Below, piece after piece: positions 1 through 27,428 of a DNA stretch of 27,428 nucleotides. Each line of letters begins with the position of its first letter. Position 1 is the stretch's first letter. Source of the DNA: a virus; the IMG/VR virus record IMGVR_UViG_3300000576_000018, positions 1 through 27,428 of that record; one strand, given 5' to 3'. The position numbers and the translations under genes were made by a program. The notes under the pieces are model-generated. The model saw only the letters and a program-made list of their open reading frames with translations, searched no databases and was not told the origin of the DNA.

Positions 1-889
1 ACTCAGTAGACGACCAGTAGGAGTTAGGAGCGAAACCCTCTCCAGCAGGCAATGTAGTATTTGTGGGTCCACCATCATTGACATACAACTGATTCAACTC
101 ATCACGAGCAGGCAGATACCAATCTGAAAAGCCATTGATCGTTCTGGTGGCTGTCCAGTTGCCAGCTGGATGTTCTGCATTGTCCATTGGACCATAAGTG
201 TTGCTGAATCCATCAACACATGAATCAGTTCCAGCTGTGGCGGTTCTTGTGGTCTTCCATTGACAAGTAGCACATCCAGACGCATTTGGTGACACGATCA
301 GCGCATAACATTGTCCAGCAGCACAAATGGTGCCAATGTAGAAACCACCACGAGCAGATTCACCGAAACTGGTCAAATTGAAAAAACTTGCCGGGGTGTT
401 TGCAGTTGTTGTTCCAAAGTTTGAGAAAAAACCTGTTTCTGACCGATGTCTTGCTCGAAACTCATATTCAGTTGACACTTCGAGATTCCCTATAGGAACC
501 ACAATTGAAGTCAGATTGTTAATATCATTTAATGACGTAAAAACAACTTCATTGTTCGAAGTGCGACGAATCTCCCAATCAGTAGATTCGTGTGAATCAG
601 CTCCTATCGTAACTGTAAATGCAGAAGTGGAAATCGTCGGATTTTCTGGAACGTCTGATGGAGCTCCTTCAACTGTGATTGTCGGTGTTTCGATCAGAAC
701 ATCATCTTTTGAAATGATCTGCTCCCAATCAGAACCATTGTAAAGATAGAACTTGTCTCGATCTGTATCAAAGACAGCCATTCCATTGCTCGGATCACTG
801 ATTGCCAATCGTTCAGCTGTTGTAAATCTTCCAGGTCGGAACACTTTGTCATCAAAAATGACTGTATCACCTTGAATCTTGATTGCCAT
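1..889 (-). CDS. Partial tail adhesin with C-terminal DUF1566 (C-lectin-fold type) domain
   Basis: A minus-strand reading frame opens at an ATG (887-889), beginning MAIKIQGDTVIFDDKVF, and runs open to the left edge, so the C-terminus is missing. The first ~60 residues resemble short N-terminal modules of T4-like virion proteins (a YLYNGSDWEQI-type segment). Residues ~65-165 look like an Ig/FN3-type beta domain (TPTITVEGAPSDVPENP, then STEYEFRARHRSETG). From ~170 on there is a Cys-containing DUF1566/Lcl_C-type domain with its hallmark GFSDWYLPARDELNQLY and YWSSTE motifs. Domains of this kind are C-type-lectin-like folds found in phage receptor-binding proteins and in targets of diversity-generating retroelements. 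I infer a host-recognition protein. The segment that would be hypervariable in such proteins lies beyond the window. It starts 8 bases after the stop of the 187-residue gene. Confidence 0.75.
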   Translation of the reverse strand, partial: MAIKIQGDTVIFDDKVFRPGRFTTAERLAISDPSNGMAVFDTDRDKFYLYNGSDWEQIISKDDVLIETPTITVEGAPSDVPENPTISTSAFTVTIGADSHESTDWEIRRTSNNEVVFTSLNDINNLTSIVVPIGNLEVSTEYEFRARHRSETGFFSNFGTTTANTPASFFNLTSFGESARGGFYIGTICAAGQCYALIVSPNASGCATCQWKTTRTATAGTDSCVDGFSNTYGPMDNAEHPAGNWTATRTINGFSDWYLPARDELNQLYVNDGGPTNTTLPAGEGFAPNSYWSSTE

Positions 890-1645: not shown

Positions 1646-2071
1646 TTACGTGAGTTGTCGTGGTAGTATAAATAACAGACCTTCAAGAATCTTTATTCGA
1701 TCTCCACCAAACTTCACCATGATCAAATCGTATTGATATTTACCTGACTTTTTATTTCTTGTCGCTTCCGGAGAGATAAATAAATTAAGTTTATTTGTAA
1801 CTCCATTCACAACAACATCAAGATCGGCTTCAAATTGTACTACACTTGAATATATCTTCCTGATTTGGCAAAAGAATTGTTGATCTGTGATTTCAAATTC
1901 ATCACCATCGTCTGTTTCAAGTTCTAGTTCAATTAAAAAGTCGACTCCTTGATCAACATATAAATTTATCTGGTTGTCATAGTTCCTCACATGTATTTTA
2001 GTTTTATTTATCTTTTTACGAAATACACATTTTAAGTTATGATACCAATCAAAAAAACATATAGTCAACAA
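1646..2071 (-). CDS. Ig-like virion protein with apparent 3' frameshift
   Basis: The core (RNYDNQINLYVDQGVDF ... FFCQIRKIYSS ... SGKYQYDLIMV ... IKILEG) resembles a beta-sandwich protein family common in T4-like marine phages, where the ending is usually a V-x-EG-x-V-x-V strand. The open frame can be drawn back to a TTG at 2071, but homology to the family seems to begin near a GTG at 1990, just after a late-promoter motif; the residues before that look like untranslated AT-rich DNA. At the 3' end, the frame continues after ILEG as GLLFILPRQLT and stops at 1646. Stepping back one base at about 1679 instead gives ILEGSVIYTTTTTHVNAQT, which restores a beta-strand-like ending and stays open to a TAA at 1464-1466, just before the 187-aa gene. 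No canonical slippery heptamer is present, so a one-base deletion or a sequencing error is as likely as programmed frameshifting. Confidence 0.55.
   Translation of the reverse strand: MLTICFFDWYHNLKCVFRKKINKTKIHVRNYDNQINLYVDQGVDFLIELELETDDGDEFEITDQQFFCQIRKIYSSVVQFEADLDVVVNGVTNKLNLFISPEATRNKKSGKYQYDLIMVKFGGDRIKILEGLLFILPRQLT
2004..2012 (-). promoter_or_regulatory. Candidate late promoter (GATAAATAA)
   Basis: On the minus strand the bases read GATAAATAA, close to the T4 late -10 element TATAAATA. It lies 14 bases before the GTG at 1990, so if transcription starts there the GTG would be close to the 5' end of the message. The surrounding DNA is AT-rich, so a chance match is possible. Confidence 0.4.
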
Positions 2072-2208
2072 CGATCATGCTAAAGCATTGACCGTTTTCT
2101 TTTTCAAAAGAAGATAAATTGTGTTTTTCATAATTAGTTTTTGCCTAAATGAACAAGTGCTTTGAGCTTATAAGGTCTTCAAATTTGAAAGTAAAATAGC
2201 AACTTGCC
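2072..2208 (-). other. AT-rich spacer without a recognisable gene
   Basis: Between the Ig-like gene and the interrupted small gene there is AT-rich DNA with only a very short minus-strand ORF (starting MKNTIYLLLKKK, 18 codons), which I do not consider supported. A short near-palindrome, ATGCTAAAGCAT (around 2076-2087), is present. I see nothing else. Confidence 0.5.
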
Positions 2209-2487
2209 TTAATTTAGTCTTTGACAATACTCTATGGTTCCACCCGTGTTTATAAACCATAGATCTTTAGGTTTCATTGAGAGGGTATGAATACCGGATC
2301 GAGTCTTAAATTCAAAGATACTATCATCGTCTCGTCCTGCTCTTACTGTAGTACCAGACGCTATAGTGTTTTAGCTGTTATTAGAAGCTTTAGTTATAGC
2401 CTGTATAGAACCGTTATCCAAGCTATTGATATTTAACAGCTCGCAAGAATTGCCGATTACGTCCGTAACTGAAATTTTTATTGCCAT
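2209..2487 (-). pseudogene. Small virion-type gene interrupted by an in-frame TAA
   Basis: The ATG at 2487 has a good ribosome site (AAAGGAGACGAAG). It encodes MAIKISVTDVIGNSCELLNI and continues for 38 codons to a TAA at 2371-2373. The same frame then stays open for 53 further codons with sensible protein sequence (NTIASGTTVRAGRDDDSIF ... KPKDLWFINTGGTIEYC) before a TAA at 2209-2211. The TAA could be one base away from CAA (Gln). The MAIKI start resembles small proteins that precede fibre and adhesin genes in T4-like marine phages; the DUF1566 adhesin in this window starts the same way. It may be a broken gene, a sequencing error, or less likely a readthrough gene. Function unknown. Confidence 0.55.
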
Positions 2488-2517
2488 CTTCGTCTCCTTT
2501 GACTATTGGCGCTTGTG

Positions 2518-3942
2518 TTAATAATTTTTATTTTCTAAATGTATAATTCTGTCTTGTAATTCTTTAATTGCTTCAACTAATAGACCTACCATATTGCCGT
2601 ATGATACAGCTAGATTAGTTCCATCTTCCTTTACAGCTTCGGGAAGAACATTTTGTACATCTTGTGCAATTACACCGGTTTGTCTTTCACCTGTATCTAT
2701 ACGAGTATATGTATAGCCCGTTATAGCATTGACTTTATCAAGAGCATTAACAATTACGCTTAAATCGGTTTTCAATCTAAGATCCGAATTCGAACTAACA
2801 TCACCAACAGAAAAAAGATTTCTTACGTGAAAATTACCATCATAATTTACTCTTGTTGTGTTTGTTGGATCTGTAGTTCCGGCATAAAATCTGCCTGCGG
2901 CCTTTGATGTGCCAGTAACCGCAATGGCTGTAGAAAATGTTTTTACACCTTCTACCGTTTGGTTACCAGTTATATTTACTGTTGGTAACGTAATATTTTG
3001 AGAACCATCGAATGAAACTCCATTAATAGTGCGAGCTGTTGTCAGTGTTGCTGCACTACCGGTTGTGTTTTGATTTCCGGTTTGATTCACGCCGGGCAGG
3101 TTGATATTGGCGGTGCCGTCGAAGCTCACGCCGCCGATGGTGCGCGCAGTCTGCAGTGCCGTAGCAGTGCTCGCGTTGCCTAAGATATTTTCTACTGTAA
3201 GAGTTTTTGTACTTGGATTATATGAAAAATCCGATGCCGACACAAAAAGTTCATTCACATCTGTTGATGTGCTATCTGTAAATAGAATACCTCTTTCTTG
3301 ATTAGTAGTATCATCAGTTGTAATTTTTGTCTGCCCGAACGTGTCAAATACAACCCACACCGAGCCGTTGAAGATCAAGTCATATGTGACATAATCTGAT
3401 GTCAATGTTAGATTAGATACAGTTCCATCAATTGTGCTGATATCATTACCATTCCCAAGTATTAGTACATTATTGACGGAAGCCGTTTTTGTAACTACTC
3501 GAATGATGTCATCTTTTTCTGGAGAAGCTGGAAGAATGATTGAAAATGATGCAGCAGTGGAATCTGCAATGATGTAGTCATTGATTTCTGCATTGTAGTT
3601 GTCATTGATAAAGATAGGATTACCAAGTTCCCCACCAATCTCACCCCAATCAACACCATCATAGCCTTCAAATGTGTCAAGATCGGTGTTGAAACGAAGT
3701 GAACCAATCAAAGCACTCGGTCGTTCCGCTGTCGTCCCAATAGGAAGAATGAACTCACTGTCAGCGACCAAGGTATTTGCAGTAAATGTTCCAGTGAGAG
3801 TCGAGCTGCCTTCAACTGTGAAGCCAAGAGGTCCCGCAAGCATCACATTTTCATTTGCAAGATCGATCAAGTCGTTTGTTCGTTCAAGCCAAACCTGAAA
3901 GGTATCTGACGTCTCTATGTTCGTTATGTCTGTATTACTCAC
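2518..3942 (-). CDS. Tail fibre with S74 intramolecular chaperone
   Basis: A 474-residue fibre starting at a GTG (3942) with an AGAGG ribosome site. The N-terminus (FQVWLERTNDLIDLANENV) is typical of fibres that attach to T4-like baseplates. The middle contains a GYDGVDW segment and two ~35-residue shaft repeats at residues ~255-291 and ~295-328 (TARTIxGVSFDG). The last 89 residues form a Peptidase_S74 / endosialidase-type chaperone (SDLRLKTDLSVIVNALDKV ... TGVIAQDVQNVLPEAV). Ser386 and Lys391 have the spacing of the Ser-Lys dyad used for self-cleavage in that family, so the chaperone is predicted to trimerise the fibre and then release itself. The gene overlaps the 60-aa gene upstream by 8 bases and has a likely own late promoter at 3978-3986. 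It is a host-recognition candidate; the receptor is unknown. Confidence 0.85.
   Translation of the reverse strand: MSNTDITNIETSDTFQVWLERTNDLIDLANENVMLAGPLGFTVEGSSTLTGTFTANTLVADSEFILPIGTTAERPSALIGSLRFNTDLDTFEGYDGVDWGEIGGELGNPIFINDNYNAEINDYIIADSTAASFSIILPASPEKDDIIRVVTKTASVNNVLILGNGNDISTIDGTVSNLTLTSDYVTYDLIFNGSVWVVFDTFGQTKITTDDTTNQERGILFTDSTSTDVNELFVSASDFSYNPSTKTLTVENILGNASTATALQTARTIGGVSFDGTANINLPGVNQTGNQNTTGSAATLTTARTINGVSFDGSQNITLPTVNITGNQTVEGVKTFSTAIAVTGTSKAAGRFYAGTTDPTNTTRVNYDGNFHVRNLFSVGDVSSNSDLRLKTDLSVIVNALDKVNAITGYTYTRIDTGERQTGVIAQDVQNVLPEAVKEDGTNLAVSYGNMVGLLVEAIKELQDRIIHLENKNY
2959..3180 (-). repeat. Two tandem fibre-shaft repeats, one GC-rich
   Basis: Copy 1 (3070-3180, residues 255-291) and copy 2 (2959-3060, residues 295-328) encode related peptides, TARTIGGVSFDGTANINLP and TARTINGVSFDGSQNITLP. 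Copy 1 is strikingly GC-rich: 63 of 93 bases at 3088-3180 are G or C by hand count. Copy 2 has the AT-rich codon use of the rest of the gene. Confidence 0.8.
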
Positions 3943-4117: not shown

Positions 4118-7100
4118 TCGAATGCAATTCCTCTGTAATCAAGAACTTTTGGAACACTTCCAACATCTTCTGAAAGCAAGTCGATCCGCACGGCGAATGA
4201 TCTATATCCTTCATATGTTCCGGTATCGTTAGTATATTCCACAATTCCAGTGTTTGAAGATTTAGAAGTATCCGGAATTTCATAGACGTATTCTTTATAG
4301 TCACTTGTATTTGAACCACTTGAGAATAAATCGGCACCAGAGATTTTTTCAAGTTCAATCCATGGATTGTTTCTTAGTGCTACTGGGTCTGCATCATTCT
4401 TTACTCTCAGATATGCTTTAATATCTGTTCCTAATGGTCTATAACCAGTAAGATAAAGTCTGAAATCTTCGGCATCAAAACCTTCTTGAAGTTCAACCCT
4501 CTTTGAAATGTATTTTGATGTTGTTGCAGGTGTATTTGTTATTTGATATATGTAAGCAAATAGCTGTGCAGTTTCAATATCGACCACCGGTGTTGTCGTG
4601 GGAATATCTTCCTTCTCGAGAGTCAATACTAATTTCAGATTCTTTTCTTGGTTTGTATCATTTGATTTACTGAATACGATACAACCTCTTTCATTGAATG
4701 CTTTATTTGCTGCAAATTCAAACTCTTTCGCATATGGGGGATCGGCAGTTGCACTTGGATCAATTGCCTTGACTGCAATTTTTACATTTGTGTTTTCATC
4801 TACAATTCGGTTGATCATTGCTTGGATATAACTTAATTCCAAATCATCCACAGTATCAACTTCTAATATAGCACCACTATCAAGACCTCTTACGGTATCT
4901 GTAGCTACAAATATTCTATCTTCACGTGCTGAAGACTGTTCAAGTATCAATAGATCAGGTTTTCTAGGATTAAAGTAAGAAACTGTTCCTGCCACGATAG
5001 GTTCTGATTGTAGTGTTCCACTAAATCTTGGAATTTTATTTACCACAAGTTCTGAACTAGATACTACTGAAACGACTCTAAAGATATCTTTATCCGTGAC
5101 ACCATTTTCAACATAAAAATAATCGCCTTGGTCATAAGCAGTAAGACCAGTGCCCGTAACTACACTGGTATTAGTTTGTAGATTTACAGTAAAGGTATTA
5201 GCACCTTTGAATGCATATGCCAATTCACCGTTTATGAATTTACCACTTACATTAACAGCTCTCAAGAATTCGTAATCGGTTGTTTCCAATTCAACCGTTC
5301 CGCTATTCACTTCGAAGTTATACCGGAATAGATCAAATTTAATGTCTTCATCTTGATATGCTGTCCATGCTCTGTTATTTGTAGATGTGAATAGTACACC
5401 GTCCCCCCAGTCAGCATTTACAGGTGCTCCTGTAAGTAAATCAGTGCCAGCCGGTTTTGTTGTGAAAATCAAGTAATCTGGATCATCTGCGTCTGGTTGT
5501 ATTACAATTGCATATTCTTTTTCTGCATCCAATCTAACTGGTGCATCAAAAATAATGCTAGTAGCAATAGACGCATCATCAGACACAAAAACTTCTGTTG
5601 ATCTAAGATGTTTCTTTCCAAATGGGATAATTTCCCAACCAGGATATCCATTTACTACTTCTCGAATCTGAATAGTCACACCATTTGTAGGACTTTTTCT
5701 TTTAAAGTATAGATCAATTCCACTCACATAAAGTGCATCAGCTTCTCTTGTCATTGAATCCTTCACAAAGAAAGTCTGTGCAAGAGGACATTTATTTCGT
5801 CTACCTTGTTGAACTTCGCGGTCCATTACAGTGCGAGTGGTTCTTTCTTCCAGAACTTGAATTTCAGGGAATCTTGTTGAAATAGTTGTTCCTACTTTAT
5901 CTACACTAAAATTGTAAGCATTATACTTCAATTTACCAAATGATGCTGCTGCAGCATCAATATTATCAAACAAGTCCACATCTGCAATTACAAGTTCTCT
6001 TTCGCCGACAAAAAATGTATTTTCTGGTATTTTGAAGATTGCAAACAATTCACCATTTTCGTTTGTTCTGACCGCAGTTCCAAAAGATCCGTTTTGTGCT
6101 ACTCTTGTATTTGTCGGGAGAGGACCCTGCGAATCACCAAAAAAAATACCAGGGGCAACATCGGAATCGATTGAAACTTCATCGAAGAAGAAATAATGTC
6201 TTGTGTTCGGGCGAAGACCATACATTTCTATCTGAACTTCACGAGAACGTATAAAAGGTCTGAATTGGAAATTTGTGACGAAATCTCCAACAAAATTTTG
6301 TTCTAATTCACCAGCCGTGACGCTCAATTCTCTAAAGACGTCTTCCCATTCTTGGAATGTTTGTGTAGTTGTAACTGTATTTGCTCTCTTACCGCTTCCA
6401 ATTTCCGCCGTATTTACTTCATTCCATTCATCTAGTAAGATAGATTGTTCCGAAGTAAGAGGTACAAACTCGCTTAGTGCTTCAGTAAAGTCTATAAAAG
6501 GTTGCGCGAGATCTAATTCTAATTCAGCTGGTGTTATAACAGTATCGTAAGCAACATCATATTCAGGTGTGAGAGCACCAGTTCCCAAGAAACTATATAC
6601 GTTACTTGTGCAAGATCTAAACCCAGTCGCATATTGTTGCTTTAAGAATCGAACAACTTTATTCGATGTAAGTGTTGTTACTGGACCTATTTGTTCAGTA
6701 TTAACTGTATCACTTACTCTCACGTTCATTGGGAATTGTTTCAGACTAGGTCTGAGAGTTGTATCTGAAACATCGATTGATGCTGAAAATGATGCATCAG
6801 TTACGTCAGCAATCGAAAGATCACGAAATGGATCTACTATAATACCATTCTTGAACCGATTGTTTCCGAATTCATCCTGTATTAGAAGATTTGCCGTTGC
6901 GGTTTCAAGAGCAGAAAGTGTTACGTAATAGACAAGACGATCCAATTTTCTGGAAATCTTATCAATATCTTTCATTGTATATGTTTTTACGGTTTTAGTA
7001 GAAAGAGATATCGCTTCATTTCTTCTATTTAATCTAAATGCCTCTTCGTTTGTAAGCAGAGGAAACCCTGGTACTCGAACTTCTGCTATAATCGTATTTT

Positions 7101-22905: not shown

Positions 22906-23447
22906 TAGCGAATAGACCTTTTGAACTCTTCGACAATTTGATTTCGATAGATCTTGTCAATCAACTGGATATTTCGTTTGTTTTCATTCTGTTGTTGTTC
23001 ATATTCATACAAACGAACAGCAGTTCCACTGGCCGTTTCGGCTGATACTCTGTAGATTTTTTCAGTATCTTCAGATTCTTTGAAATAGTAAACGATGTTA
23101 TCACTTCTTGTTTCATCTTGACCCCAACGAAGAACATCAAATCCAGTTCTGCCTGATACCTCTGAATACTTATCAATGAAATACTGATCAAATTCAACGT
23201 CACCCATCGGCCATTCATAATATGGATCTGTGATGTTGTTTGCTAGAAGAACTAGCCAAGTATCATCAACAGAACCATAATACAGTCTTGCAATATCTTC
23301 CGGTTTCTCACCTTCTCTGATTGTGAATGGCAAAAAGATGTAAGGATCATTCAAAATTGAGTCGCGAACTTTGCTACGACGAGTAATGTCTCTAACTCGT
23401 TTATCTTGATATTGGATTAGTGGATAGTTTGTGAAGTATCTTGACAT
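22905..23447 (-). CDS. 53: Baseplate wedge protein gp53
   Basis: A 180-residue protein (T4 gp53 is 196) with the gp53 core: YIFLPFTIREGEKPEDIARL, YYGSVDDTWLVLLANNITDP, YYEWPMGDVEFDQYFIDKY. This includes the LysM-like fold and the W-V-L-L-x-x-N-N-I-x-D-P-Y-Y signature. gp53 clamps neighbouring wedges together around the hub. Start and stop codons overlap both neighbours (TAATG on each side), so it is translated coupled to the gp48-like and hub genes. Confidence 0.92.
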   Translation of the reverse strand: MSRYFTNYPLIQYQDKRVRDITRRSKVRDSILNDPYIFLPFTIREGEKPEDIARLYYGSVDDTWLVLLANNITDPYYEWPMGDVEFDQYFIDKYSEVSGRTGFDVLRWGQDETRSDNIVYYFKESEDTEKIYRVSAETASGTAVRLYEYEQQQNENKRNIQLIDKIYRNQIVEEFKRSIR

Positions 23448-24463
23448 TATCTACCACCACCAAATAATGGTTCTGGAGTTTGTCTTACACCAGTAGCTTC
23501 GAAAGAATCGGCACCATAATCCTTAGCCGTATGTATGTCAGATTCGATAATATTCATTTGCATTTGAACAGCAGCAGGTCTGCCTCCTTTCAAAACTGAA
23601 ACTCCATTTGGCGTATAGTTTACGTTAAATGTTTGAACCATTGCAGTTTTGAAGAAATAATAAAAGTTTCCATCCAAGCCAACAAAAAAAACATCAACCA
23701 TAGAAGGATATCTAAACATCACATTTTGTGCAAGTTCCCCGCTAACATATTGCGGCAGTATGTTTTTGTTGATAGTCTTTATCACTCTTCTAAGATTTTC
23801 AGACTCATCCGATGATTTTGGAGCAACAGTCCAATTGAAACTATGAGTTTTCATGTCAACTCCTTCAAATGAAAGAGCTGCTTTTGGATTTATGAAAGTT
23901 CCCGTGCCCGCATCAACGCTACGACCCACATTGCCAGGGAGTGCCTTTCTCAACAAAAACGCAGCATCATTGGAAAAATCATCTAGTCTCCCTGTATTAA
24001 CACCCCCTTGCCCTGTTAAGGTTCTAAAAGCATTAGTTATAAGATCTCTTGTAAGACCGTAGGCATCGCCGCCGTCCGTGAATGCACTAGGTAATGCTGA
24101 TTGTATTGCATTAATAGCAGCATCTTGGAACGTGGAAAATCTTAATCCACCTGATGCAGAAGCCTCTGACATTACATTTGATAATACCGCTCCTCTTATT
24201 TCTTGCTCAAAAGACTGAACTTTAACTGTAAAAGAGTCTTGTATGTTTTCTGGTAGTGGCAAAAAGATTGTATCAGATACATTGCTTTCCTCAAGAGATG
24301 CAAAGGTTCTAGTCCCAGGAGCTCTATACTGGTAGTCTCTGAACATCAATAACATCCCATAGTTTCCGTCCTCCGCCGGAACTTGAAGATTTTTTGGTGT
24401 TCTGCTTATAGAAGCTGATCTTACAGTTTCTCTTGCTGGTCTAAACTGGTTTCTTTGTGGCAT
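23447..24463 (-). CDS. Tail-tube cap/initiator protein, gp48-like
   Basis: A 338-residue protein, first gene of the leftward late operon. A GVDMKTHSFNWTVAPKSSDE segment followed by LRRVIKTINKNILPQY parallels the T4 gp48 region FTWDLTPRSTEDLMAIINII, and the later TAMVQTFNVNYTPNGVSVL and PAAVQMQMNIIESDIHT resemble the tube-protein-like fold near the gp48 C-terminus. gp48 and gp54 are related baseplate proteins that start tube polymerisation on the hub; gp54 is the alternative call. The N-terminal ~25 residues are basic and probably disordered, and residues ~100-180 are Ala/Gly/Ser-rich. The ATG at 24463 has AGGA six bases upstream and a late promoter at 24499-24509. Confidence 0.7.
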   Translation of the reverse strand: MPQRNQFRPARETVRSASISRTPKNLQVPAEDGNYGMLLMFRDYQYRAPGTRTFASLEESNVSDTIFLPLPENIQDSFTVKVQSFEQEIRGAVLSNVMSEASASGGLRFSTFQDAAINAIQSALPSAFTDGGDAYGLTRDLITNAFRTLTGQGGVNTGRLDDFSNDAAFLLRKALPGNVGRSVDAGTGTFINPKAALSFEGVDMKTHSFNWTVAPKSSDESENLRRVIKTINKNILPQYVSGELAQNVMFRYPSMVDVFFVGLDGNFYYFFKTAMVQTFNVNYTPNGVSVLKGGRPAAVQMQMNIIESDIHTAKDYGADSFEATGVRQTPEPLFGGGR

Positions 24464-24475
24464 CTTGATCCTATT

Positions 24476-24509
24476 GTGATAAATAGTATATGTTAGTTCT
24501 ATTTATCAC
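24476..24509. promoter_or_regulatory. Divergent late promoters forming a perfect inverted repeat
   Basis: GTGATAAATAG (24476-24486) and its exact reverse complement CTATTTATCAC (24499-24509) are separated by 12 bases. Each arm contains GATAAATA, a variant of the T4 late -10 element TATAAATA. The left arm points right (toward the gene 4 relic and endonuclease) and the right arm points left (toward the gp48-like gene). This is the strand-switch point of the window, so a bidirectional late promoter is the simplest reading. Confidence 0.7.
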
Positions 24510-24522
24510 GAAAGAAAATATT

Positions 24523-24600
24523 TTGGGATCATATAAAGGAAGGTTTAGACCTAAGCAACCTGAAAAATATAAGGGTGACCCCACAAAAACCATAAAATAA
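24523..24600 (+). pseudogene. Relic of the 5' end of gene 4
   Basis: From a TTG at 24523 the plus strand encodes a 25-codon fragment beginning LGSYKGRFRPKQPEKYKG, then DPTKTIK and a TAA. It is nearly the same peptide as the start of the intact gene 4 at 25674 (SYKGRFKPKNPEKYKGDPTK). At DNA level the two copies match from TATAAAGGAAGG to about 24590, with many third-base differences, so they come from different phage lineages. After 24590 similarity stops abruptly. This is the stump left when the endonuclease cassette entered. Confidence 0.85.
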
Positions 24601-24618
24601 TAAATAGAATATGTTAGT
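24599..24618 (+). promoter_or_regulatory. Candidate late promoter of the HNH endonuclease gene
   Basis: ATAAATAGAATATGTTAGT (24600-24618) matches 18 of 19 bases of the rightward promoter region at 24479-24497. It begins right after the gene 4 relic and 60-80 bases before the endonuclease start. The following GTTAGT...ACTAAC (24613-24640) can pair as a hairpin and might control translation. Confidence 0.5.
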
Positions 24619-24676
24619 CGCGGATGGCAGTCCCACTAACTCTATGTTGAAACACCTAACGAGAGGAACACAGCTC

Positions 24677-25684
24677 ATGTCTATTTATAACACCGACACG
24701 TGCGCGGTATGCAGCACCACATTCAAATCTTTCAAATCTCTAAGTAATCACATTTCTGGAGCTCACGGCATTAGAGCAAAAGAATACTACGATTCCTACA
24801 TAGCAACAGAATCGGAAAAACACTGTGATTCATGTGGATGTACAGTATCTTTCATAAACGTCAGAAAAGGCTATAAGCATTTTTGTGAAAAATGCTCAAG
24901 ATCCATAGGAGCAAAAAGATTCAGAAAAGAACTGAAAGAAGATGAAGAGCGCTTTGAACAGTTCTCAAACAAAGTTTCTAAGAATCAAAAGAATATTTGG
25001 GCAGAAAGAGTTGAAACCGGTGAGTCAGAAGAAATAAGAGCAAGATCAAGGATTACATTTAGTAAAACAGTTTCTAAAATGTCTGAAGAAGAAAGATCTG
25101 TAAAGTTTGGTTGGCTAAATAAAATAGAAGATCCTAAAGAAAAAAAGGAAGCTATAGATAAAGTAATAAAACCTTTGGTCAATTTTTGGAAAGGCGATAG
25201 CAGCAGTATCAAAGAAGAAACGATTCAGAAAAGAAGAAACACAATGCTATCTAAGACCTCAGAAGAAAAAATAGAAATAACCAAGAAAAGATTTGCATCT
25301 CGGTATGCAACTTCTATGGATCTCATTGATATATGGTATAACGATAAAGAATCGAAAGAACTGTATTATAGAGCTGTTTGGGAATACACAGAGATTTCGT
25401 ATAATTACAATAAACACATCATAGACCCTCATAATCTTCGTGGATTTACAGATGGTACTGAATACCACTTGGACCACACTTATAGTATCATGCAAGGCTT
25501 CATTTATTCAGTTGACCCTAAAATAATAGGTCATGCATGTAATCTTCAGATACTCCCCGCTGTGGATAATCTTACTAAATCTGCTGAATGCTGGATTACT
25601 TTAGATGAACTGAATAGAAAAATAGGTCAGTTTGAGATAAATAATAAAAACACTTGGGTTGCAGAGGTACTAAATGAGCTATAA
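24677..25684 (+). CDS. HNH homing endonuclease with two zinc-binding motifs
   Basis: The frame is open from an ATG at 24611, but the ATG at 24677 is preferred: it follows AGAGGA by nine bases and starts the conserved part (335 residues). The N-terminus has a C2H2-like finger (Cys9, Cys12, His25, His30) and then a Cys-rich motif (Cys50, Cys53, Cys70, Cys73), probably DNA-binding. A charged helical region follows (~75-220). Near the C-terminus HLDHTYSIMQGF (His264, Asp266, His267), the NLQILP segment (Asn289) and DNLTKS (Asn298, Lys301) form an HNH nuclease site. Free-standing homing endonucleases like this cut related phage genomes that lack them and are copied in with flanking DNA. It sits between a relic and an intact copy of the start of gene 4, and its stop overlaps gene 4 by 11 bases. 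Confidence 0.85.
   Translation: MSIYNTDTCAVCSTTFKSFKSLSNHISGAHGIRAKEYYDSYIATESEKHCDSCGCTVSFINVRKGYKHFCEKCSRSIGAKRFRKELKEDEERFEQFSNKVSKNQKNIWAERVETGESEEIRARSRITFSKTVSKMSEEERSVKFGWLNKIEDPKEKKEAIDKVIKPLVNFWKGDSSSIKEETIQKRRNTMLSKTSEEKIEITKKRFASRYATSMDLIDIWYNDKESKELYYRAVWEYTEISYNYNKHIIDPHNLRGFTDGTEYHLDHTYSIMQGFIYSVDPKIIGHACNLQILPAVDNLTKSAECWITLDELNRKIGQFEINNKNTWVAEVLNEL
24681..24691 (-). promoter_or_regulatory. Possible leftward late-promoter match (TATAAATA)
   Basis: The minus strand reads GTTATAAATAG, containing the exact T4 late consensus TATAAATA, just inside the endonuclease gene. It would transcribe leftwards through the gene 4 relic into the gp48-like gene, 220 bases away. It may be coincidental coding sequence. 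Confidence 0.3.
25636..25644 (+). promoter_or_regulatory. Candidate late promoter of gene 4 inside the endonuclease gene
   Basis: GATAAATAA lies 30 bases before the gene 4 ATG, in the last codons of the endonuclease. It fits a T4-type late -10 element and could keep gene 4 expressed independently of endonuclease transcription. Confidence 0.5.
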
Positions 25685-26138
25685 AGGAAGGTTCAAGCCT
25701 AAAAATCCAGAGAAATACAAGGGTGACCCTACAAAAATCCGATATCTCAGTCTCTGGGAATTGTCCTTAATGCGTAAGTTTGATTCCCACCCTGACATTG
25801 TAGAATGGCAATCAGAAGAGATAGCCATACCTTATATGAATCCAGTCAAAGGTAAGACAAGTCGCTATTTTCCGGACTTCGTAATCAAAAAGCGTATCGG
25901 CGAGAATAAATACCAAATGATAATGATTGAAGTAAAGCCGAAAAAACAGACAATGCCACCAGACCCGTCAAAGAAACACAATACCCCAACAGGCAGAGTT
26001 TCACGAAGATATTTGAATGAGGCAGCGACATATGCAGTCAATGAAGCAAAATGGAAAGCAGCAATGAGATACTGCAAAGAACGAAACTGGATCTTCACTA
26101 TTATGACAGAAAAAGAAATTAAACCACTAGGAAAGTAA
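25674..26138 (+). CDS. 4: Head-completion nuclease gp4
   Basis: A 154-residue protein closely following T4 gp4 (150 residues): SYKGRFKPKNPEKYKGDPTK, IVEWQSEEIAIPYMNPVKGK, RYFPDFVIKKR, MIMIEVKPKKQT and EAKWKAAMRYCKERNWIF. Pro67-Asp68 and Glu86-x-Lys88 form a PD-(D/E)xK nuclease signature, with Glu29 (LWEL) a possible extra acidic residue. gp4 acts at the head vertex when the filled head is completed for tail joining. The start codon overlaps the endonuclease stop by 11 bases. Its 5' end is duplicated at 24523-24590, so the present copy of at least the first ~20 codons probably arrived with the endonuclease. The next gene begins directly after its stop. Confidence 0.92.
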   Translation: MSYKGRFKPKNPEKYKGDPTKIRYLSLWELSLMRKFDSHPDIVEWQSEEIAIPYMNPVKGKTSRYFPDFVIKKRIGENKYQMIMIEVKPKKQTMPPDPSKKHNTPTGRVSRRYLNEAATYAVNEAKWKAAMRYCKERNWIFTIMTEKEIKPLGK

Positions 26139-26732
26139 ATGGCCAAGATTTTTGACGACATATTAGTGAAAGGGATCAAGTCTGGTCAGGTGCCAGCTAG
26201 ATCCAGCACTGCACGTGAGTGGTTTAGAGAAAAAGCAAAAAGTATAGGTAAAGTTTCTGAAACTAGAATCCTTAGAGATGATACAGATAGACTCAAGAAT
26301 CGCACTGCGATAGGGAGGATGTATTTCTTTGTCTATGATGCAAAGCATAAAGCAACTTTACCTTACTATGATAAGTTCCCATTGATCTTTATGGTAGGTC
26401 CTGCAAAAAATGGATTTTTTGGCGTGAATACCCATTATTTGCCGTTGAAACTTAGAGCTCAACTAATGGACGGACTTTATGATATTACAAACAACAACCG
26501 CTATGATGAAAGTACAAAGCTAAGGCTTTCTTACGGTCTTTTGAAATCTACTGAGAACTTATCTCTATTCAAACCATGTTTTAAACACTATCTGAGCAGT
26601 CAGGTTCGCAGTAGATTTGTTTTGATAGAGCCATCGGAATGGGATATTGCATTATTCTTGCAAGTAGAACAATTCCAAGGAGCGTCAAAAACAAAAGTCT
26701 GGGCAGATTCGAGGAAGATCATTCGGGGTTGA
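26139..26732 (+). CDS. Conserved T4-like virion-assembly protein, 197 aa
   Basis: The ATG follows the gene 4 stop without a gap (TAAATG), with AGGA just before it, so it is coupled to gene 4. Recognisable conserved blocks are GRMYFFVYDAKHKATLPYYD, KFPLIFMVGPAKNGFFGVNT, HYLPLKLRAQLMDGLYDI, FKPCFKHYLSSQVRSRFV and ASKTKVWADSRKII. I recall this arrangement as a protein widely kept in T4-like phages, but its function is not shown by any motif here. T4 encodes gp2 (DNA-end protector) next to gp4, so it could be the gp2 counterpart; that is positional inference only. The C-terminus lies two bases from the convergent GIY-YIG endonuclease gene and may have been altered by its insertion. Confidence 0.7.
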   Translation: MAKIFDDILVKGIKSGQVPARSSTAREWFREKAKSIGKVSETRILRDDTDRLKNRTAIGRMYFFVYDAKHKATLPYYDKFPLIFMVGPAKNGFFGVNTHYLPLKLRAQLMDGLYDITNNNRYDESTKLRLSYGLLKSTENLSLFKPCFKHYLSSQVRSRFVLIEPSEWDIALFLQVEQFQGASKTKVWADSRKIIRG

Positions 26733-26782
26733 TGTTACTCAGATTTATGTCGGCATTTATCAAAATGCCATCTTAACATCAA
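26729..26782. terminator. Nested hairpin at a convergent gene junction
   Basis: TTGATGTTA (26729-26737) pairs exactly with TAACATCAA (26774-26782). Nested inside is GGCATTT-ATCA-AAATGCC (26752-26769), a perfect 7-bp stem with a 4-base loop. The outer left arm covers both stop codons of the convergent genes. It could act as a bidirectional transcription stop, but no T-run follows immediately on either strand, so termination is uncertain. Confidence 0.35.
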
Positions 26783-27428
26783 TCTACCACCGCTTTTGTT
26801 GCAATGAGGGCAAGTATAAATGACATTATGTGATTTTGAAATGTTATCCTTGTGTTCTTGAGTTTTAGGTTTTCCTTTCATTACAACTTTCATTTTGGCC
26901 GAATGTTCCGGTCTTTTCTTTCCATAAAAAGGATTTTTTTCGCCACTCATCCTAATACTAGCTTCCTGTTTGTATTCATCGGTATGAGCTTTACCGTAAA
27001 ATCCGTTATTCTTACCCTTACGGGTTTCACTCCGTTCTTTTCTTTTTTCTTCGGTAAGAAATATGCCTCTAGCCCAACCTTTGCCGGGACATTCGGTAGA
27101 TCTAATGGTAGTTATACCGTCATTCCAGAACAACTTACCGGTATTTGAAATATGTGAGGTTCTTATAGCATCACCATCACTTTCATTCAACCACTCATCT
27201 TTGTGAACGACATCTAGTCTTTTCAAAACCCTCTTTTCCCATTTTACAGCTGAATCCTCATCTGAAAATGTTTTTCTTATTTGGATAATATCGGGGTCGC
27301 CGAATTCAGAAATAAAGTTTGTTACTACTTTAGAGCTAGTAAAATACGTCGCCCAAAAATCGTCTGGGTGACATCCGGTTTCATACAGACATTTGTACGC
27401 CTTTGCATAACGAACTCCGTAATACCAC
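26735..27428 (-). CDS. Partial GIY-YIG/NUMOD3 homing endonuclease
   Basis: The frame stays open upstream of the TTG at 27226 to the window edge, so the true start is outside. The first visible residues WYYGVRYAKAYKC, with GCHPDDFWATYFTSSKVV and later SAVKWEKRVLKR, match the degenerate GIY-YIG nuclease type found in T4-like phage homing enzymes. A segment with WNDGITTIRSTECPGKGWARG follows, then two NUMOD3-type DNA-binding repeats (GKNNGFYGKAHTDEYKQ and GEKNPFYGKKRPEHSAKMK). A C-terminal zinc-binding motif closes it (CPHCNKSGGRLMLRWHFDKC). It is convergent with the 197-residue gene, two bases between stops, consistent with insertion of a free-standing homing gene at the end of a conserved gene. 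Confidence 0.8.
   Translation of the reverse strand, partial: WYYGVRYAKAYKCLYETGCHPDDFWATYFTSSKVVTNFISEFGDPDIIQIRKTFSDEDSAVKWEKRVLKRLDVVHKDEWLNESDGDAIRTSHISNTGKLFWNDGITTIRSTECPGKGWARGIFLTEEKRKERSETRKGKNNGFYGKAHTDEYKQEASIRMSGEKNPFYGKKRPEHSAKMKVVMKGKPKTQEHKDNISKSHNVIYTCPHCNKSGGRLMLRWHFDKCRHKSE

Follow-up and report, generated by a model that had tools for sequence, protein, structure and literature searches.

Organization of the gene 4 locus

The stretch of DNA analyzed here (27,428 nt, referred to as the window) derives from a T4-like phage and is an IMG/VR fragment. A set of tail and baseplate genes on the minus strand is followed, on the plus strand, by gene 4 and then gene 2 (DNA end protector; phrog_429, E = 1.2e-55). 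Gene 4 is assigned by matches to phrog_218 (E = 3.8e-54) and to the Pfam TnsA-like N model (E = 2.2e-23). Features of the locus are listed in Table 1. The palindromic late promoter situated between the two gene sets is also present immediately 5′ of the single gene 4 in three relatives that carry no nuclease gene at this site (L002, L003 and L006). The ATG of the complete, or working, gene 4 (position 25674) sits within the preceding nuclease gene, whose stop codon is at 25682–25684, giving an overlap of 11 nt. The working gene 4 itself is uninterrupted.

Table 1. Features at the gene 4 locus (positions are those of the window)
Feature	Position	Strand	Remarks
Tail and baseplate genes; position is that of the last, the tail tube cap gene	23447–24463	minus	
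Resident palindromic divergent late promoter (GTGATAAATAG...CTATTTATCAC)	24476–24509		Between tail tube cap gene (minus) and gene 4 (plus); read from the sequence
Stump, resident gene 4 5′ end	24523–24600	plus	TTG start, codons 1 to about 23, then TAA TAA
Stump/cassette junction	24592–24596		Gene 4 similarity stops after I23, right before the near-invariant YRS motif
Second late promoter copy (AATAAATAGAATATGTTAG)	24599–24617	plus	First part of the cassette; resembles resident promoter spacer TAAATAG-ATATGTTAG
Predicted RNA hairpin	24599–24690	plus	5′ arm, promoter box; 3′ arm, nuclease start codon
Putative homing endonuclease gene, 335 aa	24677–25684	plus	phrog_5104/23051; assigned by motif and relatives
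Putatively imported gene 4 5′ end, codons 1–24 of working copy	25674–25745	plus	
Probable cleavage/crossover region, R23-Y24-L25-S26-L27-W28	25740–25757	plus	From alignment and motif listing
Working gene 4 (head closure/TnsA-like nuclease fold), 154 aa	25674–26138	plus	

The start of gene 4 is present twice

Codons 1–23 of gene 4 are found two times in the window, once as a stump (24523–24597) and again in the working copy from position 25674. The second late promoter copy and the 335-codon nuclease gene lie between them. The stump is an open frame of 25 codons that begins TTG GGA TCA TAT and is closed by a TAA at 24598–24600 (LGSYKGRFRPKQPEKYKGDPTKTIK). A first-pass annotation of this DNA had reported the duplication at this place, with differences at third codon positions, and both observations are borne out. 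Stump and working copy are identical at 49 of 63 aligned nucleotides, with 9 of the 14 differences falling on third codon positions. The best ungapped 60-nt match between the two has 49 identities, whereas shuffled sequences (n = 2000) reach at most 37. Thus the duplication is not a chance similarity.

The duplicated length had been given as about 20 codons and the insertion boundary as 24590/24591. The similarity runs slightly further, to codon 22–23 (I23; ATA at 24592–24594 in the stump), and its end places the boundary at about 24592–24595 instead. This end directly precedes the codons for Y24-R25-S26, which are near-invariant among gene 4 proteins. The start codons differ, the stump beginning with TTG and the working copy with ATG. 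By BLAST, stump positions 24532–24584 match gene 4 of relative L001, and positions 24477–24589 match the promoter and gene 4 of relative L002. The stump had also been termed dead; it displays no visible degradation, its frame is intact and its TTG start is like that of relatives L002–L007.

Close relatives with and without the nuclease gene

Eight close relatives from viral contigs (L001–L008), with 75–90% identity in the gene 4 protein, were compared. Seven of these (L002–L008, representing five distinct sequences) are without the nuclease gene and show the promoter, a short leader and a single gene 4, as the first-pass annotation had predicted for phages lacking the endonuclease. The duplication is present in none of the seven. 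Four of the five distinct nuclease-free sequences (L002–L007) have a TTG gene 4 start as found in the stump. L008 and L001 have the ATG start of the working copy.

Short genes at the position of the stump are not found in any of the relatives. The stump could be read as a small functional leader gene or peptide kept by selection, given its intact 25-codon frame, TTG start and lack of obvious decay. This is barely credible, as no relative has a separate short gene there and the isolate phages K362 and Marzo, described below, keep only 5–8 nt of the resident start.

L001 is the nearest relative, at about 76–82% nt identity, and has neither stump nor nuclease gene. However, the 36 nt that precede its ATG-type gene 4 (L001 positions 2976–3011) represent the last 12 codons of the nuclease gene, in frame (NTWVSEVLDEL*) and with the same stop. 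The joining of a nuclease tail to an ATG-type gene 4 shows that the nuclease and the imported front end travelled as a unit, and that L001 lost most of the nuclease gene later. Which copy is foreign in the window itself we infer from the TTG start and promoter of the stump and by analogy to the isolate phages, the nearest relative, L001, being only about 76–82% identical. The stump would be the resident copy and the start of the working gene the import.

Occupied and empty alleles in isolate phages

A tblastn search shows a nuclease relative of 27% identity in Vibrio phage K362 and ten near-identical records (11 records in all). It is situated at the same site as in the window, between the tube cap gene and gene 4, and overlaps gene 4 (GTG at 4653) by 11 nt, as in the window. 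Phages K471 and K369 (97% identity) and D506 (95%) served as empty comparators. K362 equals K471 through the promoter and into gene 4, as far as its fifth nucleotide (ATGGC). There then follow a foreign leader, the nuclease gene and a foreign gene 4 start, the latter identical at 59 of 75 nt over the first 25 codons. Compensating 3-nt shifts occur shortly upstream of codon 28; beginning with the TGG of W28, the two phages agree at 485 of 489 nt. The differences are thus 16/75 in the gene 4 front versus 4/489 downstream (p = 7e-12). Over the corresponding part of gene 4, 2 of 90 nt differ between two empty genomes.

Within the leader imported 5′ of the K362 nuclease lies a short gene 4-like segment (S W E L V A F K), at about 3754–3790 of the K362 sequence (L083). 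It matches at 18 of 23 nt, and all five mismatches are at third positions (p about 0.002–0.007).

Stenotrophomonas phage Marzo has an unannotated open reading frame at the same site (L090:3010–3621), which displays a zinc-finger-like N-terminus. The N-terminal part matches residues 3–103 of the window nuclease. The sequence of Marzo agrees fully with that of IME-SM1, YB07 and Moby, its empty relatives, through nt 8 of gene 4 (ATGAGCCA); the foreign open reading frame and a foreign gene 4 start follow. The resident gene 4 start codon therefore now begins the foreign open reading frame. Near-identity to the empty relatives returns just past YRSSWEL, with differences at 19/73 positions in the gene 4 front versus 11/349 downstream (p = 5e-9). 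The Marzo open reading frame is without the nuclease motif and extends out of frame into gene 4; thus it looks like a decayed nuclease gene. The nuclease genes at this site form a decay series, from the intact forms of the window and K362 through the truncated one of Marzo to the 12 codons that remain in L001.

These comparisons show that in both K362 and Marzo the nuclease came in together with a foreign gene 4 front end of about 27–34 codons, as one co-linear block. On the right the block ends at the conserved YRSSWEL or within about 6 codons downstream, and its left edge is inside the resident gene 4 start. The flanking DNA transferred together with the nuclease is the foreign 5′ end of gene 4, with sharp right borders. 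The proposal of the first-pass annotation that the working 5′ end was imported along with the endonuclease is upheld by K362 and Marzo against near-identical empty genomes, and by the remnant in L001. Occupied and empty alleles at one site in close relatives are seen for K362 and Marzo, and the window is compared with more distant relatives only. "An unusually clear record" of homing without an intron, as the locus had been called, is an apt description of the isolates and less so of the window. The end swap is seen independently in the window's phage and in these two other phage groups, with reuse of the same site.

A local tandem duplication of the resident promoter and gene 4 start within one lineage, followed by entry of the nuclease gene between the copies and drift of the first one, would fit two observations from the window: the promoter copies share TAAATAG-ATATGTTAG and are closer to each other than to those of other relatives, and stump and working copy are about equally distant from relatives. 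It is nevertheless improbable. The TTG versus ATG starts, the share of third-position changes (9/14) and the intact frame of the stump are not explained by drift of a dead copy. The K362 and Marzo fronts are foreign relative to near-identical genomes, and neither phage has the resident start in tandem. More improbable still is an assembly artefact in which metagenome sequences of two co-occurring phages were fused between the stump and the second promoter. The window comes from IMG/VR as a fragment with no reads, and stump and working copy do come from different alleles, but the junction displays no long exact shared word to mislead an assembler and a similar architecture is found in the isolate genomes of K362 (11 records) and Marzo.

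The nuclease and its family

The window nuclease consists of a zinc-finger-like N-terminal part and a C-terminal D-H...N...N...K nuclease motif, of which D266, H267, N289, N298 and K301 are conserved across distant relatives. The family (phrog_5104/23051) is of unknown function. No match was found in Pfam, NCBIfam or PDB, and nothing in PDB significantly resembled the structure models of the whole protein or of the C-terminal domain. In the model of the C-terminal domain (pLDDT ~71), the strand-helix order around the conserved residues is the expected one. Against a viral structure library the models matched, with good E-values, only uncharacterised phage proteins, among them known members of the family. 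A direct search of viral contigs for close relatives of the window nuclease yielded none, and only distant ones were found.

In Campylobacter phage CP21 and in contig L099, the sheath gene is split by a family member that lies next to a group I intron core (Rfam RF00028; E = 9e-11 in CP21 and 9e-17 in L099). The loci are L099:1655–2900 and, in CP21 (L085), 1679–3132. The CP21 annotation shows split sheath genes and does not mention the intron. These matches come from Rfam scans on short ranges; a first combined scan missed both introns. A group I intron in the window or in K362 was considered and rejected, with no Rfam match in short-range scans and an uninterrupted working gene 4.

Group I intron cores are the classical setting of homing endonucleases, and their presence beside family relatives supports a homing role. 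On this basis, together with the motif and the model, the window nuclease likely has a homing function. As to the first-pass label of HNH endonuclease, no Pfam or NCBIfam model supports HNH, and the assignment as a homing endonuclease is supported by the D-H...N...N...K pattern and the intron-core relatives.

Other relatives are found between gp18 and gp19 in Tequatrovirus and Jiaodavirus. These are clean intergenic insertions with flanks mostly 93–100% identical to empty genomes, and a search there for an exchanged coding end or a gene 19 stump found neither. The front-end swap, with its borders inside coding sequence, is therefore specific to the gene 4 site and is not a property of the whole family.

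The second late promoter can pair with the start region of the nuclease gene (AATAAATAGA...TCTATTTATAA). The predicted hairpin has a fold energy of −20 kcal/mol and is weak against shuffled sequences (z about −1.7 to −1.8, with 8–11 of 200 shuffles as good), and possibly acts in translation control of the nuclease. A similar arrangement of late promoter and hairpin control has been reviewed for I-TevI, segB and mobE (PMC2988022). A perfect TATAAATA is present on the minus strand at 24682–24689.

The YRS motif

The sequence YRSSWEL occupies codons 24–30 of gene 4 and is near-invariant. Most phages have YRS at its start; the window has RYLS, K362 has YWRS, and Marzo keeps YRS. Altered forms are also found without an upstream nuclease gene (L031/L054/L060, L079 and L107). 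A search for the K362 allele in other phages found none, and a search for the window allele gave one window-like match, L107. An altered YRS was considered as a marker of nuclease-carrying phages and is taken as no more than suggestive, as L107 has the window-like allele with no nuclease gene upstream. Because the working gene 4 is whole, self-protection of an occupied genome must lie in sequence differences rather than in an insertion. That the imported allele is immune through its YRS changes is only suggested by these sequences.

Probable exchange of the 5′ end of gene 4

The locus is probably a scar left by a free-standing homing endonuclease that works through one-sided repair of a double-strand break and thereby exchanges the 5′ end of the gene it targets. 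The mobile unit would consist of the late promoter, the nuclease gene and substitute first codons (about 25) of gene 4. Judging from the borders, the nuclease probably cuts an uninvaded gene 4 at the YRSSWEL stretch. The right side of the break would be repaired by homology with the donor gene 4. The left side would be closed by illegitimate joining after variable resection, because little usable homology would be found there, the donor having the promoter and nuclease gene in that position. What remains of the resident gene 4 start would then vary, as it does between the window (23 codons), K362 (5 nt) and Marzo (8 nt). The donor front end would complete a working gene 4, and the imported allele would withstand cutting by its own nuclease.

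A more elaborate form of this scheme is that the stump serves the donor as a left homology arm, such that promoter, nuclease gene and resistant gene 4 start form a self-perpetuating "pseudo-intron". Each transfer would regenerate the recipient's stump and swap in a cut-resistant front, with no need for splicing. We consider this extension doubtful. The gene 4-like relic in K362 (18/23 nt) hints at a stump of an earlier round.

Exchange of the gene end would mean that a selfish nuclease can invade an essential structural gene at its coding start and yet leave it uninterrupted, since the invader supplies the gene end and involves neither intron nor intein. The pairs K362/K471 and Marzo/IME-SM1 represent the states before and after such an event in two isolate phage groups, and make the idea directly testable. 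A front-end swap would also explain abrupt N-terminal mosaicism in a conserved head gene.

Comparison with known mobile elements

Mobile open reading frames of fungal mitochondria form gene hybrids in Allomyces macrogynus atp6, in Glomus atp6, atp9, cox2 and nad3, and in Rhizopus atp9 (PMC3630166). As in the window, a free-standing endonuclease gene adjoins a foreign end of the target gene that has displaced the native one, and the foreign ends are divergent in DNA but similar in protein (PMC3630166). The fungal elements exchange the 3′ (C-terminal) end of organelle genes, whereas here a phage late gene is affected at its 5′ (N-terminal) end, and promoter and start codon must therefore be supplied as well. 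The fungal nucleases are also of a different family. The case described here is best read as a phage mirror image of the fungal mobile open reading frames. No report of a phage homing nuclease that swaps the N-terminus of its target gene was found among open-access papers.

In phage T4, MobA and the 50-nt translational bypass of gene 60 form a mobile cassette in which a piece of the target gene alters its own cut site. The nuclease travels with a piece of the target in both systems, but gene 60 is split or bypassed and gene 4 is uninterrupted. The family members in CP21 and L099 (split gp18) and in Tequatrovirus and Jiaodavirus (gp18/gp19) belong to the same family as the window nuclease. However, the former two are intron-associated, the latter are clean intergenic insertions, and none shows an exchanged gene end.

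The free-standing T4 homing endonucleases (SegA–G, MobA–E) likewise have the nuclease gene beside an essential target, late expression and flanking co-conversion (PMC2988022). Illegitimate one-sided break repair is known in T4 as well, with microhomology junctions and extensive degradation (PMC2988022). In contrast to the window, these endonucleases are usually intergenic, cut hundreds of bp away and leave no duplicated or exchanged gene end (PMC2988022). The borders here are within the first ~34 codons of the target gene.

Since flanking co-conversion is standard in T4 homing (PMC2988022), the locus might represent ordinary intronless homing, with the stump a chance leftover and the front swap functionally unimportant. 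We find this rather unlikely. The foreign stretch in K362 and Marzo ends at or just after YRSSWEL and not hundreds of bases off, the left edge is inside the gene 4 start in three of three cases, and the gp18/gp19 relatives insert without swapping coding ends. An end exchange by one-sided repair is the reading that we prefer.

Other nuclease-like genes near gene 4

A second homing endonuclease-like gene is found past gene 2 in the window (26735–27226, minus strand; NUMOD3, E = 5.8e-9). Identity to L001 is 96–100% over the first 200 nt of gene 2 (26147–26348) but about 82% in gene 4. This sharp jump suggests a recent exchange tract beside the NUMOD3 gene.

Contig L071 carries a GIY-YIG-type gene (101–868, plus strand; weak Pfam match, E = 0.008) directly 5′ of gene 4, with an overlap of 17 nt. 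Its gene 4 has FRS in place of YRS. This is possibly a different nuclease class that uses the gene 4 landing site. In contig L044 a gene at 2396–2989 (plus strand) shows NUMOD-like repeats by eye (GEKNGFYGKTHT...) and ends just before gene 4. It may be another nuclease relic at the gene 4 site.
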